Part shown: positions 33,703-39,710 of the stretch, piece by piece
Position numbering within the stretch: position 1 is the first letter of the stretch
Layout of the letters: every line of letters starts with the position of its first letter
From: Xanthomonas floridensis
GTDB taxonomy: Bacteria; Pseudomonadota; Gammaproteobacteria; Xanthomonadales; Xanthomonadaceae
Length of the DNA stretch: 64,000 nucleotides
Direction: 5' to 3'
NCBI RefSeq assembly: GCF_001642575.1
Contig: NZ_LXNG01000005.1
Location: forward strand, 62,001 to 126,000
The notes under the pieces: model-generated
What the model saw: only the letters and a program-made list of their open reading frames with translations
Told to the model about the DNA's origin: nothing
Database searches by the model: none
Made by a program: the position numbers and the translations under genes

Positions 33703-33902
33703 GACACCCTCGTAGTTGCTGGATTGATTGGGCTGGCAGCGCCATGACCCGGCGTGCCTGCGCACTGTACGGCTTGCGCGGGGGGGAAGGGCAGGGGGGA
33801 GAGCGAGACAGGGCGACGGGCGGTGCGTCCGGCCCGGCGTCTGCTCGACGCAGCGTGCGCCGGCAGCCCTCGGCGCGGCCGGCAGTGCTGCAAACGCAAA
33901 AC

Positions 33903-33936
33903 GCCCGCGTGTGATGGTGAGGGTCGGCACGCGGGC
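33903..33936 (-). terminator. terminator hairpin of the truncated lipoprotein copy
   Basis: Stem GCCCGCGTG/CACGCGGGC (33903-33911, 33928-33936); on the minus strand it is followed by GTTTTGCGTTTG. Duplicate of the hairpin at 36138-36171. Confidence 0.7.
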
Positions 33937-33956
33937 GCTGGCGACAGCGGGGGACC

Positions 33957-34090
33957 TTACTTGGCCGTCGGCACGCGCTGGTACTGCTCGCCACCGGTGT
34001 TGAGGTGGCCGTTGGTCGCGTCGATGGCGAAGTTCACCGTCTCGCCATCGTCGGTGACCTGCAGCGCCCCGTCCTTGTAGACCGCCGGGG
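33957..34090 (-). pseudogene. 3' fragment of the small lipoprotein gene at 36190-36522
   Basis: Encodes only the last ~44 residues (YKDGALQVTDDGETVNFAID... to a TAA stop) of the intact gene 2.2 kb to the right, with one extra residue near the end (RVPTAK versus RVPAK). There is no start codon or signal sequence; similarity stops abruptly at ~34090. This is a product of duplication or of recombination that brought in the intervening cassette. Confidence 0.9.
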
Positions 34091-34290: not shown

Positions 34291-34887
34291 ATGGCCCTTC
34301 GCATTCGGAGATTACATGGACTGCCATTTGGCTGGGGACATGCCGCCTTTCCGCGAGCAATCTTGTTGCCGCTTGGGCTGCTGGCGTGCAGCCTCCATTC
34401 GGGCTGTGCTTCTAGCACTCCACGCAGTCACTCAGCTGTAGCAGCTGCCAAGCCCCCCCTTGAAACCAGGAGCAAAGACGTGACGGAACGCCTCAAGCAA
34501 GATGTGGATCGTTTGATCGGCACCGATTTCCAAGATGTCGCAGCACTCAGTGCCCAGCTTCAAACACAATTTGGCCCTCCTCAATCGCAAGAAGCGATGG
34601 TGGTGCGTGTTGGTCAGGGCGGTGCGCTGGCCGGTGCGGCCTTGCAGCGTATCGAGCTCCGTAGTACGCAGGACGCCCCTTCGCATGCGACGCTGGTGCT
34701 CGACTTTTCTGCGTCTGGCCCGGCGCTCGAGGATGTGCCTTGGCCGGATGCGCTGCTCTACCCGCCGCGGCCAGACGCACCGGGTTCGAGCGCCTATTGG
34801 TCGTTTCAGAGGGGACAGGTCACCATCATCCTTGGGCTGACCAAAGATCAGGCCAACCTGAGCTTTATTACAATCAGCAAGCAGTAA
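34291..34887 (+). CDS. lipoprotein, probable immunity protein for the adjacent T4SS effector
   Basis: 198 residues. N-terminus is basic, then a hydrophobic segment AILLPLGLLACSLHSGC with lipobox LHSGC (Cys ~41), so the mature protein is probably anchored in the periplasm. The rest has no recognised domain. Immediately upstream (32 bases) of a XVIPCD effector on the same strand, the arrangement of X-Tfi immunity lipoproteins with X-Tfe toxins described for the bacteria-killing type IV system of Xanthomonas citri. Ribosome site is weak (GGGATAGAGAG). GC content is lower than the flanks. Assignment as immunity rests on context. Confidence 0.65.
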   Translation: MALRIRRLHGLPFGWGHAAFPRAILLPLGLLACSLHSGCASSTPRSHSAVAAAKPPLETRSKDVTERLKQDVDRLIGTDFQDVAALSAQLQTQFGPPQSQEAMVVRVGQGGALAGAALQRIELRSTQDAPSHATLVLDFSASGPALEDVPWPDALLYPPRPDAPGSSAYWSFQRGQVTIILGLTKDQANLSFITISKQ

Positions 34888-34921
34888 GTTGCTTAGCTGA
34901 ACCCCTGCAAAGGAGTGCATG

Positions 34922-36076
34922 ATGGAAAGTACCGACGAGTCGAAGTATCCCCAGTCACAGCAATCCACGCCAGCAACCGCGGCCGGGAAACCATCCTCGC
35001 CACTGTCAGATCCCGCGGTGATACCTTTTCTGCAACAGTCGCGCACACTTCAAGCAGGTCTTGCGCAGCTCAATCGAGATAATGTCGGTGTTGTCTGGGG
35101 AGCCGCTGGTGCCGGAACGTATCTGGTTCCCCGCACGCAAGTGGTCGTTGACGAAAATGCAATCGGGCAAGGTGCGCGCATCGCCCGTTCGCTCTCCCAT
35201 GAAATTGGACACCATCGGTTTACCGAGCAGCCTGATCATTCCTCTAAAAATGCGTACGTCACGAACATGCTCCGTGGTGAAGCTGCCGCAACACTCAGTA
35301 ATGCGTTGGTCCGACGTGAGATTCTGAATCATCAAGGTCCCGATATCGGTATCGCTGGTAGCGGTACGAGACCAAAGCAGTACGAAGCAATTGCTGATCG
35401 GCAGATGGCAGGCCAAATCACGCGTGATGCAGCTTTGAATCAGATTGCCCAGTTATTCAAGACTGAGCAGCCCTCCGTTGGGCCGAGTAAGACGTATGAG
35501 CAGTATTACGGGGACTATTACGACAAGAACATTGCACCACTGCAGCGCAAACACGGTAGGCCGGAGCCAGGGTCTGGAACGGATAGCCTCGTCAACGATT
35601 TGAAACAGGACTTGCCGAGCCGTGATTCACAAGCGCCATTGTCAGCAAAGCCATCTCTGCCAACGCAGCAGGATCATGAAGATCACGCGCTGTACCAGCA
35701 GATCAAAGGTGGCGTGGAAAAGCTCGATGCGCAGCATGGCCGGGAGTGGGATGCATCAAGTCAGCGCATGACGGCCAGCCTACTCGTGCTAGCAAAGGAA
35801 GAAGGCCTGACGCGTGTGGACCATGTGCTGCTCAACAGTCCAACAGACAAGCTCGCGGCCGGAGAAAAGGTGTTTCTGGTTCAGGGTATTCAGAGCGACC
35901 CAGCGCACCTTCGTGCCAACATGGCCACTATGCAGGCGGTGCAAACACCTGAAAACCAATCGTTCGAACGCGTGCAATCGATCAATCAATCTCAATCGCA
36001 AACACGTGAGCAGCAGCAAGCGCTTGAGCAATCGCAGCAGACAGTCACCCCGCCTGGGCCAACGATGACGCGTTGA
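34922..36076 (+). CDS. X-T4SS effector: metallopeptidase domain with C-terminal XVIPCD
   Basis: 384 residues from ATG 34922 (AGGAG six bases upstream; ATG 34919 is an alternative). No signal peptide, as expected for T4SS cargo. The N-terminal domain contains a zincin motif HEIGH (residues ~93-97) in RSLSHEIGHHRF, with a candidate third ligand in the following NMLRGEAAATLSN helix. The C-terminal ~140 residues (DHEDHALYQQIKGGVEKLD, GLTRVDHVLLNSP, GEKVFLVQG, QSFERVQSINQSQSQ, then a Gln-rich tail) match the Xanthomonas VirD4-interacting conserved domain that recruits effectors to the T4SS coupling protein. The paired periplasmic lipoprotein suggests action on an envelope substrate of rival bacteria. 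AT-richer than the chromosome average here. Confidence 0.85.
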   Translation: MESTDESKYPQSQQSTPATAAGKPSSPLSDPAVIPFLQQSRTLQAGLAQLNRDNVGVVWGAAGAGTYLVPRTQVVVDENAIGQGARIARSLSHEIGHHRFTEQPDHSSKNAYVTNMLRGEAAATLSNALVRREILNHQGPDIGIAGSGTRPKQYEAIADRQMAGQITRDAALNQIAQLFKTEQPSVGPSKTYEQYYGDYYDKNIAPLQRKHGRPEPGSGTDSLVNDLKQDLPSRDSQAPLSAKPSLPTQQDHEDHALYQQIKGGVEKLDAQHGREWDASSQRMTASLLVLAKEEGLTRVDHVLLNSPTDKLAAGEKVFLVQGIQSDPAHLRANMATMQAVQTPENQSFERVQSINQSQSQTREQQQALEQSQQTVTPPGPTMTR

Positions 36077-36124
36077 GAGCGTTCGCGTACGTGCTTGCAA
36101 AGATGTTGACAAACCGGCATGGCT

Positions 36125-36319
36125 ACAAATGCAAAATGCCCGCGTGCGACAGGGAAGGTCGGCACGCGGGCGCTGGCGATAGCGGGGCCTTACTTGGCCG
36201 GCACGCGCTGGTACTGCTCGCCACCGGTGTTGAGGTGGCCGTTGGCCGCGTCGATGACGAAGTTCACCGTCTCGCCATCGTTGGTGACCTGCAGCGCCCC
36301 GTCCTTGTAGACCGCCGGG
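36125..36319. repeat. direct repeat, right copy (matches 33890-34090)
   Basis: Contains the terminator and last third of the intact lipoprotein gene. Together with the left copy it bounds a ~2.0 kb segment carrying the immunity and effector genes. Confidence 0.92.
36138..36171 (-). terminator. terminator of the small lipoprotein gene
   Basis: Ten-base stem GCCCGCGTGC/GCACGCGGGC followed on the minus strand by ATTTTGCATTT. Confidence 0.75.
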
Positions 36320-36522
36320 TAGCTCTCGGTCTTGGGCTTGCGGCTGAAGAACTTCGGCGTGGTGCTGCGGACCATGAAGGTCTCGCCATTGCGCTCGATG
36401 TCCATCGTCTCTTCCTGCGTCTGCACGTTGACCCAGTGGCCGACGAACTTCTCGCCCTCCACCTTGGCACAACCGGTCACCAGCAGTGCCGCGGCCAGCG
36501 CGGTGCCCATCCACTTCATCAT
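36190..36522 (-). CDS. small lipoprotein of unknown function
   Basis: 110 residues from ATG 36522 (AGGAG eight bases upstream). Lipobox LLVTGC (Cys ~18). The mature domain (KFVGHWVNVQTQEETMDIERNG, YPAVYKDGALQVTNDGETVNFVID) looks like a small beta-rich fold, with no family recognised. A truncated copy of its 3' end lies at 33957-34090. Host-like codon use suggests it is the resident gene next to which the effector cassette arose. Confidence 0.75.
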   Translation of the reverse strand: MMKWMGTALAAALLVTGCAKVEGEKFVGHWVNVQTQEETMDIERNGETFMVRSTTPKFFSRKPKTESYPAVYKDGALQVTNDGETVNFVIDAANGHLNTGGEQYQRVPAK

Positions 36523-36665
36523 CGTGTGTTCTCCTGTTGAGGCTGTGGCAGAGGATGGCGGGTTGGGGATGTATGGGAGGTCAAGGTTTGCTCGCAAACG
36601 GTGGCTCAGGTGTAAACGCTGCTCACGCTGTTGAAAAAACGCGACTTGCTCGCGTTGCCCGACCA

Positions 36666-37145
36666 TCAAAATTGTGAAGGTTCGATCCCGCCTTTTGTTG
36701 GATCGAATGATAAAACGGCTTCTAATTCCAGCTTTATCTCTTTTGGCCGGCCTTTGAGTATATAAGTGCATCCCAAAATGCCTACCTCTCTCACGACGTC
36801 GGGATCCCTGTGAACCGAGTAAATAATAACTTGACGATCTCTATAGCCTCTATTTCTAGCCATTCTTGCTACATATAGTCCCGGGTACCTCGCATAAACC
36901 GGGCCAAGATCAAGTGCAGATTTGTCTAGCGGAGGAGATAGTGGGATGTTAAGGTCTATTACAAGTGCCCTATAGATCTCTTTTTCAATTTGGCTAACTG
37001 CATCATTTGCATTGTCAATTGGTATAACTTCGAGGCCGTTTTTGTAAAAATAATCTACCATCCAGCTTAGGTGGTGCATCTCGTCGTCGACTAAGACTAG
37101 AGTTTTTTCCTCGGTTGTTCTAGCCACCTTAAGCTCTCCTGCCAT
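36666..37145 (-). CDS. stand-alone response-regulator receiver domain
   Basis: 159 residues, a CheY-like receiver with no output domain. Conserved pocket: acidic pair D20-D21 (VLVDDE), phospho-acceptor D64 (ALVIDLNIP), S110 at the switch position (VIIYSV) and K131 (YILKGRP). An insertion of ~25 residues (PPLDKSALDLGPVYARYPG) follows the phosphorylation strand, unusual for CheY-like domains. Last gene of an AT-rich three-gene operon; its start overlaps the kinase stop by 17 bases, so the two are translationally coupled. Likely takes phosphate from the adjacent kinase; whether it signals to the nuclease or buffers phosphate is unknown. Confidence 0.85.
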   Translation of the reverse strand: MAGELKVARTTEEKTLVLVDDEMHHLSWMVDYFYKNGLEVIPIDNANDAVSQIEKEIYRALVIDLNIPLSPPLDKSALDLGPVYARYPGLYVARMARNRGYRDRQVIIYSVHRDPDVVREVGILGCTYILKGRPKEIKLELEAVLSFDPTKGGIEPSQF

Positions 37146-37887
37146 TCGGTAATTTGATAGTAAACATCAATCCTGATGGGCCATCACTTTGAACGGAAAT
37201 AAAGCCGTTATGTTGTTCAATAATTTGCTTGCATATGTAAAGTCCAAGTCCAGTCCCTGAGGCGATAGTTCTTTTTGCGTTGCCGCCTCTGAAGCCAAGT
37301 TCAAACATCCTTGTCATATCCCCGGCATCAAGATGATGCTTTGATTCGCTACGAATGGTAATAACTGCATTTTCAGAATTGCTCTGAATCCACTGCTTTA
37401 CAGCAACCGAAGATCCAAATTTTCCATACTTTGTACAGTTATCGAAAATATTCATTAAAACTTGTCGAATCAGCTCCGGGTGGCCTACAACCTTGTTTTG
37501 AGTCCTTCGATCATCTAGCTCGATTCTAATATTGTTGATTGCCGCATCCTCCTGGAAAAACATTGCTGACTCGATAATTACCTGTGGCAGAACGACCTGT
37601 CTTTTATCCTGATCAGCCACTCCTCCTGAGCCTTTCGCCAGAAACGCAAGGTTTCTCAACAGCGTGATGCATTGCTCGATCTGGGCACGTGCAGCATTTA
37701 GCCGCTGCTTCCGCCGTTGCTCTTCAATTACATCTTCAACGAGATTATCTAAAGTGCCCGCAATTCCGTTGAGCGGATTGACAATCTGGTGAACAAAATT
37801 TGCTAATAACGTGAGGTCGAAAGTGTCTTTAATAACTTCTGACTGCGTTGGAAGAGTTGAACCAGCAATTTGCTTTTCATTGCTCAT
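37129..37887 (-). CDS. cytosolic histidine kinase without sensor or membrane domain
   Basis: 252 residues. The HisKA H-box is FVHQIVNPLNGIAG (His 33), then a dimerisation helix, N-box LMNIFDNCTKYGK (Asn 150), and G-box GTGLGLYICKQI (211-222) of the ATPase domain. Only ~25 residues precede the H-box and no transmembrane segment exists, so sensing must be by the kinase itself or a partner. It overlaps the nuclease gene by 11 bases upstream and the receiver by 17 bases downstream. Base use is AT-rich compared with the chromosome, pointing to horizontal gain. Confidence 0.88.
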   Translation of the reverse strand: MSNEKQIAGSTLPTQSEVIKDTFDLTLLANFVHQIVNPLNGIAGTLDNLVEDVIEEQRRKQRLNAARAQIEQCITLLRNLAFLAKGSGGVADQDKRQVVLPQVIIESAMFFQEDAAINNIRIELDDRRTQNKVVGHPELIRQVLMNIFDNCTKYGKFGSSVAVKQWIQSNSENAVITIRSESKHHLDAGDMTRMFELGFRGGNAKRTIASGTGLGLYICKQIIEQHNGFISVQSDGPSGLMFTIKLPNGRRA

Positions 37888-38833
37888 AGTTCGTTATCTC
37901 AAAAGTCGATGATTCTACTGAAATATGAATATGCAATCTTGTCCATCTAGATATGATGCCCAACTCAACGGTGTTCACAGCTTTTGGAGTCATATGTGTA
38001 ACTGAGAAATTGCCTTTGATTGACCTTTCATCAAAGGTCTCTATGATCAATCCTGGTTGCCCAGTGATATAGGCAACATAGTACATGGCGGCTCTAACAG
38101 ACAATTCATCGTATTGCCGTAACGCCGGCGGTTGGATTGACGCATCCGCCAAAATCTCTTGATCAATGATGAAATTTTCTTTTACGTCAACGAATTTTCC
38201 ATATCGCGTCAATTCTGTCAGTCTTTTATCTATGAGCTCAGATACTGCGGCAGCGGTCTCAAGAGCAGGTGTTGAACTTCCATGTATGGATCGTGCTACG
38301 TAGGCAGTCTGAACTATTTTCGTAAGAATTGAAGCAACTGGCCCAACAGCATCATTAGTGCTTTCTTGAAAATAAAGTCCGTAAGCGGATGCTATATCTG
38401 AGAAGTCGCGCAGTAGCGTTTTCCACTCATAGCCTCGCCAGACTCTTATTTTTGGAATCTTGCGTGAAGCATTCCATTGTGAAATATGAGTTTCGCAATT
38501 TGGCGATGGAGTGGAGTTGGTACTCAATAAAAGAACATCTGCGCCATTACTTTCCGCGTAAGAAATTTTCTGCCAGACTGTAGGCCAGTCAATGCTAGAC
38601 TGATATTTCTTACATTCGATATACCAAATTTGCAAGGACTCATGACCAGTTGGGTCTCGATAAGATGCTTGGCCTTCAATATCTCTACCCCCGTCCGCCC
38701 CCGGCGTACGCCACACGAGATTTTTAAAGCCGATGGCGCTCAATGTGTCGTAAGTGAGGTTCTCGAATTCAGTTGGCGATAGTGAGGCTATATCATTAGT
38801 TCCCGTCTTACCCATATTGGTAATTAAGCTCAT
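37877..38833 (-). CDS. Mrr-like PD-(D/E)xK nuclease, first gene of a kinase/receiver operon
   Basis: 318 residues. N-terminal restriction-endonuclease domain: LSPTEFENLTYDTLSAIGF helix, then GADGGRDIEG (D51) and WYIECKKY (E73, K75), the D...ExK catalytic triad of Mrr-type enzymes. Residues after ~130 have no recognised family and may link the nuclease to the kinase. It probably cleaves DNA; whether constitutively or under control of the kinase is unknown. Gene order nuclease-kinase-receiver with overlapping ends, AT-rich composition and an isolated position suggest a mobile defence or regulatory module. Start ATG 38833 lacks a clear ribosome site; ATG 38815 is an alternative. Confidence 0.85.
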   Translation of the reverse strand: MSLITNMGKTGTNDIASLSPTEFENLTYDTLSAIGFKNLVWRTPGADGGRDIEGQASYRDPTGHESLQIWYIECKKYQSSIDWPTVWQKISYAESNGADVLLLSTNSTPSPNCETHISQWNASRKIPKIRVWRGYEWKTLLRDFSDIASAYGLYFQESTNDAVGPVASILTKIVQTAYVARSIHGSSTPALETAAAVSELIDKRLTELTRYGKFVDVKENFIIDQEILADASIQPPALRQYDELSVRAAMYYVAYITGQPGLIIETFDERSIKGNFSVTHMTPKAVNTVELGIISRWTRLHIHISVESSTFEITNYEQ

Positions 38834-38873
38834 TTAATAATAGTCTAGCTTTAAGAAAAGGAGTCATGTCCAC

Positions 38874-39710
38874 TCAAGCAGTTCCTCTGCACTTCGGGAA
38901 CAGGCTATAGCGTAGGAAGTGCTCATTAGTGCGCCAGTTCCTTCTATGCACAAGCGCGCTGCCGCAGCGCGGGCAGCTTGGTGTGGCGATGGTTGCAGAG
39001 GCAGTAAACTTAGTTGAAGCAAAGACTGGTTCGACGCGTACTGGTGTAGGTACCGGTTGCGCCATGACGTCTTCTTGTAGCCCTCGTATCATTTCCAGCA
39101 GCTGTTCGCCGCTAATCATTTCAATCGGCTTGCCTACAGCAAAGCGTTCTGCGTCATCCGTGTAGGTGCCGACGCAGACGATCTTTACCGCGTGGGCCTG
39201 GTGATGGGCGAGCAGGCCGAACATTTCACGCACGACGCCGACGCCCACTTGCTGGCGCTTCCACTGCTTGCATTGCACCAACGTGCGGCGGCCGTCCTTG
39301 CGCAGGATCAGGTCGATGCCGCCGTCGGCGCCGCCCAGGCCGGTTTCTTCGACGCTGTAGCCCTGGCGGCGGAAGGCTTCGCCCACCAGTCGTTCGAACT
39401 GGCGCCAGCCGCCGGCGGCCAGGCTCTCCAGAGTCGTGCGTGTTTCCAGAAAGCGTCGCCGGCGGCGTGCGCCCAGATAGGAGACCAACGCAGCAAGCCA
39501 GCAGACGCCGAGCAGCGCCCACGCCAATGGCGCGAACATTCCATCCGCTTGCTGGGCGATGCCGTGCGACAGCATTCCGCCCTGGTGAGAGAACCACCAG
39601 GCGATGCCATAGCGCACCACCAGATATGCAGCGATTCCCATCACGAAGCCAACCGGCCACGGCAACGCGGCCAACGCCTTGAATCCACTCTGCTTCTTTC
39701 TGCGTCCCAT
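38874..39710 (-). CDS. membrane-anchored Mrr-like restriction endonuclease with zinc-ribbon remnant
   Basis: 278 residues. Two membrane helices (~18-37 and ~60-80), then a PD-(D/E)xK nuclease domain: GWRQFERLVGEAFRRQGY, GGADGGIDLIL (D133) and TLVQCKQWK (Q146, K148), the Mrr_cat pattern. The C-terminus reads CPRCGSALVHRRN and ends in FPKCRGT, a topoisomerase-type zinc ribbon, but the aromatic-Gly-Cys element before FPKC is replaced (HFLRYSLFPKC), leaving three visible cysteines. Membrane-linked Mrr-like proteins of this type are widespread in Proteobacteria, role uncertain. GC-rich like the chromosome, unlike the adjoining nuclease-kinase-receiver operon 40 bases downstream. Confidence 0.85.
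   Translation of the reverse strand: MGRRKKQSGFKALAALPWPVGFVMGIAAYLVVRYGIAWWFSHQGGMLSHGIAQQADGMFAPLAWALLGVCWLAALVSYLGARRRRRFLETRTTLESLAAGGWRQFERLVGEAFRRQGYSVEETGLGGADGGIDLILRKDGRRTLVQCKQWKRQQVGVGVVREMFGLLAHHQAHAVKIVCVGTYTDDAERFAVGKPIEMISGEQLLEMIRGLQEDVMAQPVPTPVRVEPVFASTKFTASATIATPSCPRCGSALVHRRNWRTNEHFLRYSLFPKCRGTA

Follow-up and report, generated by a model that had tools for sequence, protein, structure and literature searches.

We have analyzed a stretch of 64,000 nucleotides from Xanthomonas floridensis (contig NZ_LXNG01000005.1 of assembly GCF_001642575.1, positions 62,001 to 126,000), referred to here as the window, that carries on its minus strand a cassette of three genes coding for a nuclease (NUC), a histidine kinase (HK) and a receiver protein (RR). 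In window coordinates, the genes and the segment that contains them are the following.

37877..38833, minus strand: NUC, an Mrr-type PD-(D/E)xK nuclease of 318 amino acids (aa) with D51, E73 and K75; its C-terminal half (approximately 156-318) is fast-evolving.
37129..37887, minus strand: HK, a sensorless HisKA plus HATPase protein of 252 aa with H33, Gln34, N37, N146/N150 and GTGLG, and with Ser180 where the G1-box Asp is missing.
36666..37145, minus strand: RR, a single-domain receiver of 159 aa with D20, D21, D64, S110 and K131 and no output domain.
36586..38850, no strand assigned: approximate extent of the inserted segment, by blastn against six congener regions holding both flanks.

The three open reading frames (ORFs) had been described in a sequence-only reading and were recovered here with the same overlaps of 11 and 17 bases. 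The AT-rich composition pointed out at that time was borne out, the cassette having 43.2% guanine plus cytosine (GC) against 64.6% in 16 kb of flank, and the active-site residues then named for NUC, HK and RR are all present and conserved across the family described below. Pfam searches assigned NUC to Mrr_cat (E=2e-11) and HK to HisKA (3e-7) and HATPase_c (2e-16). For the RR of the window a receiver was the only type of match (Response_reg, 5e-5, under the Pfam cut-off).

Relatives were sought in genome, viral and plasmid collections, and are cited below by our locus numbers where needed. The complete cassette, with its gene order unchanged, was found in a plasmid of Diaphorobacter sp. HDW4B (L004) and in four contigs of the viral collection. 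A scan of 84,980 species genomes with an HK profile gave 79 loci, 16 of which (L014-L029) had an HK of the cassette family; NUC was located directly upstream of HK in all 16, and RR came next in the 14 whose contig continues (the contigs of L024 and L029 end inside HK, so that linkage to RR is not assessable there). The remaining 63 loci were other histidine kinases, in whose examined flanks nothing matched NUC at E<1e-5. Once L019 was dropped from the counts for being nearly identical to L020, from one metagenome-assembled genome (MAG), the non-redundant set including the window contained at least 21 loci, a minimum since the scan requires exact short motifs and retains no more than 80 loci. 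NUC preceded HK in 21/21 and RR followed HK in the 19/19 that could be tested. The same gene order in every locus of the family indicates that the three-gene arrangement is more than chance. The genes overlap, or nearly overlap, across the family, and the pairwise identities of NUC, HK and RR over 19 loci correlate with one another (rho of 0.30-0.55 when parts of different proteins are compared, with at most 2 of 300 permutations reaching the observed value), as expected for co-inheritance. When mechanically called flanking ORFs, 80 aa or longer and no more than 8 kb away, were compared by blastp (E 1e-8), no fourth shared gene appeared apart from two pairwise coincidences, and no methyltransferase was common to the flanks.

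The members belong mostly to Proteobacteria, with record titles naming Sphingopyxis, Ruegeria, Chachezhania, Hyphomicrobium, Pseudomonas, Pseudoxanthomonas, Tahibacter, Nevskia, Comamonas, Paludibacterium and Pseudoduganella, as well as MAGs, one of them (L024) labelled Bacteroidia. Among related genomes the family is rare. NUC was absent from all 34 congeners searched (E 0.001), and with the 5 or 10 top candidates scored in each genome, the NUC profile (398 genomes of the phylum, E 1e-20) and the RR profile (369 genomes of the class, E 1e-12) recovered only the genome of the window itself. There was no match to NUC in 50,697 phage records, nor any DNA match in E. coli genomes. Distant Mrr-domain relatives were detected on plasmids of Rhizobium and Rhodococcus (28-30% identity over the nuclease domain), where neither HK nor RR is listed alongside in gene tables that are incomplete, and a further distant match was found in Agrobacterium.

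In the family alignment D51 and K75 of NUC were found in 21/21 members, and residue 73 was E in 17 and D in 4, so that a D...(D/E)-x-K active site is present on what is predicted to be an Mrr-like fold. The AlphaFold2 model (mean predicted local distance difference test score, pLDDT, of 85) has an N-terminal domain that resembles AspBHI, MspJI, Avs4 and FokI. AspBHI and MspJI are the closest solved folds to the nuclease domain, and the fold is common to Avs4 and, at lower scores, to Cap4, LmuA, Can2 and Card1. The C-terminal half is the fastest-evolving part, with a mean identity of 18.6% versus 48.0% for the nuclease domain, and is predicted to form a helical hairpin and an alpha-beta-beta-alpha-beta-beta unit. 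Only Mrr_cat exceeded the Pfam cut-off for NUC and no receiver was detected; comparison of the C-terminal half with the RR profile did not find one either (probability 0.1%). Domain searches with this half of the 21 members gave three families, each in a single member and with weak E values (0.07-0.33), and nothing on NUC matched a known modified-base-reading domain. The sequence-only reading had suggested that this part of the nuclease may do the sensing. The suggestion is possible, given its rate of evolution, but a docking domain fits equally, and we regard the C-terminal half as a candidate sensor or docking domain.

HK retains part of what is expected of a HisKA kinase. The phospho-acceptor His33 and Asn37, at the +4 position, were kept in 21/21 members, like N146 and N150, and G213 and G215 in 20/20 (the HK of L029 ends before them and is left out). 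No sensor region was found by domain searches, by the lengths of the 19 complete members (236-263 aa) or in the model, where the helix of the dimerization and histidine phosphotransfer (DHp) domain begins at residue 25 and residues 1-22 have a pLDDT below 50. Two further canonical features, the acid after the His and the G1-box Asp (D-x-G-x-G), are lost, neither loss having been reported in the sequence-only reading. The residue after the phospho-His (Gln34 in the window) is Gln in 21/21 members; of the 47 control kinases in which this column is aligned, 41 have E or D and 6 have Q, a proportion of Q that may be too high, the controls having been fetched partly with an HQ-containing pattern. 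The G1-box Asp is replaced in 20/20 members (G in 12, N in 5, S in 3), giving a motif G/N/S-x-S/G/P instead of D-x-G, and is kept in 73/73 control kinases from other loci of the same scan (one overlapping locus, L070, was excluded). In histidine kinases generally the G1 Asp contacts adenine. The acid after the His acts in CpxA as the general base for autophosphorylation, and mutating it in NtrB and CdrS abolished kinase activity (PMC3904827); Thr or Asn at +4 serves the phosphatase reaction of histidine kinases (PMC7005713). The loss of both residues suggests, at the level of sequence, a balance shifted from autokinase to phosphatase or phosphotransfer activity, or else an altered nucleotide pocket. 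That H33 and D64 never vary in the family is an argument for a continuing role of phosphotransfer. RR could also be fed by another kinase, given 17 additional HK matches in the genome of the window.

RR has the signature of CheY-like receivers. The acidic pair (D20, D21), the phospho-Asp (D64) and the Lys (K131) were present in 19/19 members, and position 110 was S in 17 and T in 2. A longer stretch separates D64 from the conserved G89-L90. The protein stands alone in 19/19 members (139-194 aa), and no output domain was found on it, neither DNA-binding nor enzymatic.

Several lines of evidence indicate that the cassette moves. Its GC content is below that of the flanks in 22/22 loci (here L019 is counted). 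L003 and L021 share 2124 bases of DNA that are 83.7% identical, from 55 bases before NUC to 20 after RR, and have no further match at E 1e-10 outside this stretch. L003 is a prophage-like viral contig with a GH19 endolysin close by, and in L010 phage lysozyme, terminase and portal genes adjoin the cassette. In another case (L007/L013, IMGVR_UViG_3300011601_000002) the cassette is carried as cargo by a 14.7-kb element whose contig has a gene for a primase with 45% identity to the P4 enzyme across 75% of its length, and a lambda tail-I-like gene. The relative that covers this primase best comes from an induced element of 16.5 kb that carries capsid and portal genes, so that the element with the cassette could be either a satellite or something akin to a small phage. 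In layout it is reminiscent of the Pseudomonas AH14b satellite, in which a histidine kinase gene follows tail-I and lipoprotein genes (PMC4936722).

Other neighbors are of the defence type. The cassette of L012 is followed by DUF4238 and then by complete GajB and GajA genes (Gabija; PADLOC 1e-237 and 2e-234), that of L018 lies between SIR2_2 (PDC-S25/ThsA-like) and DUF2971 (PDC-S31) genes, and an SduA-like gene (weak match, 1e-5) adjoins that of L024. Besides, there is a TraI_2 gene near the cassette in L023, a resolvase in L019/L020, a HEPN gene at approximately 2 kb in L016 and an IS5 transposase beside the plasmid cassette of L004. Overall, neighbors of mobile-element or defence type were found in 10/20 non-redundant relatives. 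Several loci sit among ordinary chromosomal genes: with one or two flank proteins searched in each, L015, L021, L022, L025, L026 and L027 gave ordinary families or none (an RNA ligase at L015), and the flanks of L014, L017, L028 and L029 were inspected by eye only. Together, these sequence comparisons establish that NUC, HK and RR form a conserved unit that moves horizontally; its PD-(D/E)xK site and its phospho-His/phospho-Asp pair are intact, HK is sensorless and RR outputless.

The site occupied in the window was compared with seven congener regions, six with both flanks by blastn and one with the right flank only. In the six, homology stops at 36585-36597 and restarts at 38850-38883, and the interval between the flanks has other content in 6/6 (1.7-4.8 kb, 40-55% GC). 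One congener (L111, 7864-10026) has there a PADLOC PDC-S46 protein (E=5e-272), and a near relative of it, in two ORFs and recognized by eye, is found in another (L108, 5800-7955). In L107 the interval codes for a protein with a thymidylate-synthase domain and for an M78 peptidase that matches the PD-Lambda-2 and RmrA models. At L109 there were only sub-threshold matches, and the two proteins searched at L110 matched no family. L106 (7824-10728) carries a RelA/SpoT-domain protein and a ParA-like ATPase with an apparent transposase gene, identified by eye, between them; the pair is possibly further defence cargo. From these comparisons the site looks like a cargo hotspot. The genes that border the cassette, both outside it, are these.

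36190..36522, minus strand: small lipoprotein gene of the left flank, shared with congeners; its start was placed by eye at MMKWMG.
38874..39710, minus strand: membrane-anchored Mrr_cat protein of the right flank, present in 23/35 genomes of the genus, its own included.

The right-flank protein is hydrophobic in stretches of its N-terminal part, and its C-terminus resembles a zinc ribbon (weak Pfam match). On the other side, window positions ~33880-34089 and 36114-36573 each match more than one place in L106, which suggests that the small lipoprotein gene bordering the cassette is partially duplicated at a distance of about 2 kb. A plus-strand gene at 34919-36076 codes for a protein with an X-Tfes XVIPCD domain (Pfam 4e-32), which we take to be a candidate effector of antibacterial type IV secretion, of the kind known in Xanthomonadales, and the lipoprotein-like ORF upstream of it (34291-34887) could encode the immunity protein.

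We interpret the cassette as a mobile three-gene conflict system, most likely anti-phage, with a probability of about 0.6. The sequence-only reading had proposed a defence role; the gene order conserved in 21/21 loci and the mobile or defence genes near 10/20 relatives, which, as far as sequence can tell, place the homologues beyond housekeeping contexts, support it by context, not by function, and make an anti-phage role likely. The conserved phospho-His/phospho-Asp pair, the outputless RR and the strict linkage to the nuclease point to a gating of NUC by RR at the protein level. NUC would be a DNA-degrading effector silenced (or licensed) by the phosphorylation state of RR, and RR, having no DNA-binding or enzymatic output, would work through protein contacts, with the variable C-terminal half of NUC as its most likely target. 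HK would serve as a dedicated partner, loading the phosphoryl group onto RR, relaying it or taking it off. Sensing could reside in the variable half of NUC or in the altered nucleotide pocket of HK: infection may perturb the relay through a ligand of the former or through nucleotides at the latter, and NUC would then cut phage and/or host DNA. The direction of control, the sensing step and the DNA targeted are all points that we infer.

Since the carriers include prophage-like contigs, the element with the P4-type primase and a plasmid, and the genes overlap or nearly so, the cassette might instead be a toxin-antitoxin-like addiction or superinfection-exclusion module of mobile elements, with NUC as the toxin and HK and RR doing nothing else than restraining it. 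The invariant phospho-His/phospho-Asp pair exceeds the needs of a simple antitoxin, and we consider this unlikely, though the best placed of the alternatives. Also rather unlikely is a more specific version of the mechanism, in which HK is a pseudokinase running the reverse of a normal two-component system, as a nucleotide-reading phosphatase or phosphotransferase of RR, a function that it would owe to Gln34 and to the nucleotide pocket changed by the loss of the G1 Asp. Infection would alter the nucleotide or phosphoryl flux and RR would flip and free NUC through its C-terminal half, which would be a degenerate docking domain similar to a DHp plus catalytic and ATP-binding (CA) unit. Improbable, in our view, is a type IV (modification-dependent) restriction enzyme with an accessory regulator. 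AspBHI and MspJI as nearest solved folds, and flanks that share no methyltransferase, are in its favor, but NUC matched no known modified-base-reading domain and RR has no DNA-binding output with which to control expression.

The sequence-only reading had also offered a reduced version of Detocs, a family of three-gene defensive two-component systems (PMC11249213). Under that explanation the kinase would sense infection and phosphorylate both a buffering receiver and a receiver on the effector. The likeness is real, with three genes, a histidine kinase, a stand-alone receiver and an effector that is probably gated by phosphorylation. However, Detocs effectors carry a receiver and Detocs kinases have a large N-terminal sensor region, and the cassette has neither: there is a single receiver, none being detectable on NUC by Pfam or by comparison with the RR profile, and HK lacks the sensor region, the G1-box Asp and the acid after the His. 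Membership in Detocs is thus not supported and, going by these two defining features, is largely refuted; we give it very little credence. Detocs is still the nearest working analogue of the cassette. That ordinary housekeeping signalling genes lie by chance beside a nuclease gene, as the loci amid ordinary chromosomal genes might suggest, is scarcely credible and refuted by the strict three-gene linkage in 21 loci; the patchy distribution and the mobile and defence contexts also speak against it.

Other known systems share single parts with the cassette. Avs4, Cap4 (CBASS), LmuA (Lamassu), Can2 and Card1 have Mrr-like PD-(D/E)xK effectors that are gated by STAND, SAVED/CARF or SMC-type partners, whereas the cassette nuclease is partnered by a phosphorelay pair. 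HK differs from HisKA kinases like HK853 and CovS in the missing sensor, the Gln after the His and the missing G1 Asp. No single system of PADLOC-DB 2023 matches the cassette; there is one domain-level match each to three unconnected candidate families, PDC-M43B (kinase, 7.8e-15), PDC-M58A (nuclease, 1.2e-9) and PDC-M60C (receiver, 0.0055). In literature searches on this gene combination or on Detocs we found no description of the cassette; a figure legend of DefensePredictor names HATPase and REC, and an overlapping prediction is possible. Most likely, the cassette is a two-component-gated effector system, probably of an undescribed anti-phage type.

If this is true, the cassette would add to Detocs a second, different architecture for placing an immune effector under the control of a bacterial two-component phosphorelay. 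It would also place a pseudokinase-like histidine kinase in immunity, and we know of no earlier immune system with a dedicated kinase that is sensorless and degenerate. It would raise the question of how infection is detected without a sensor domain, and as a module of approximately 2.2 kb the cassette is directly testable.
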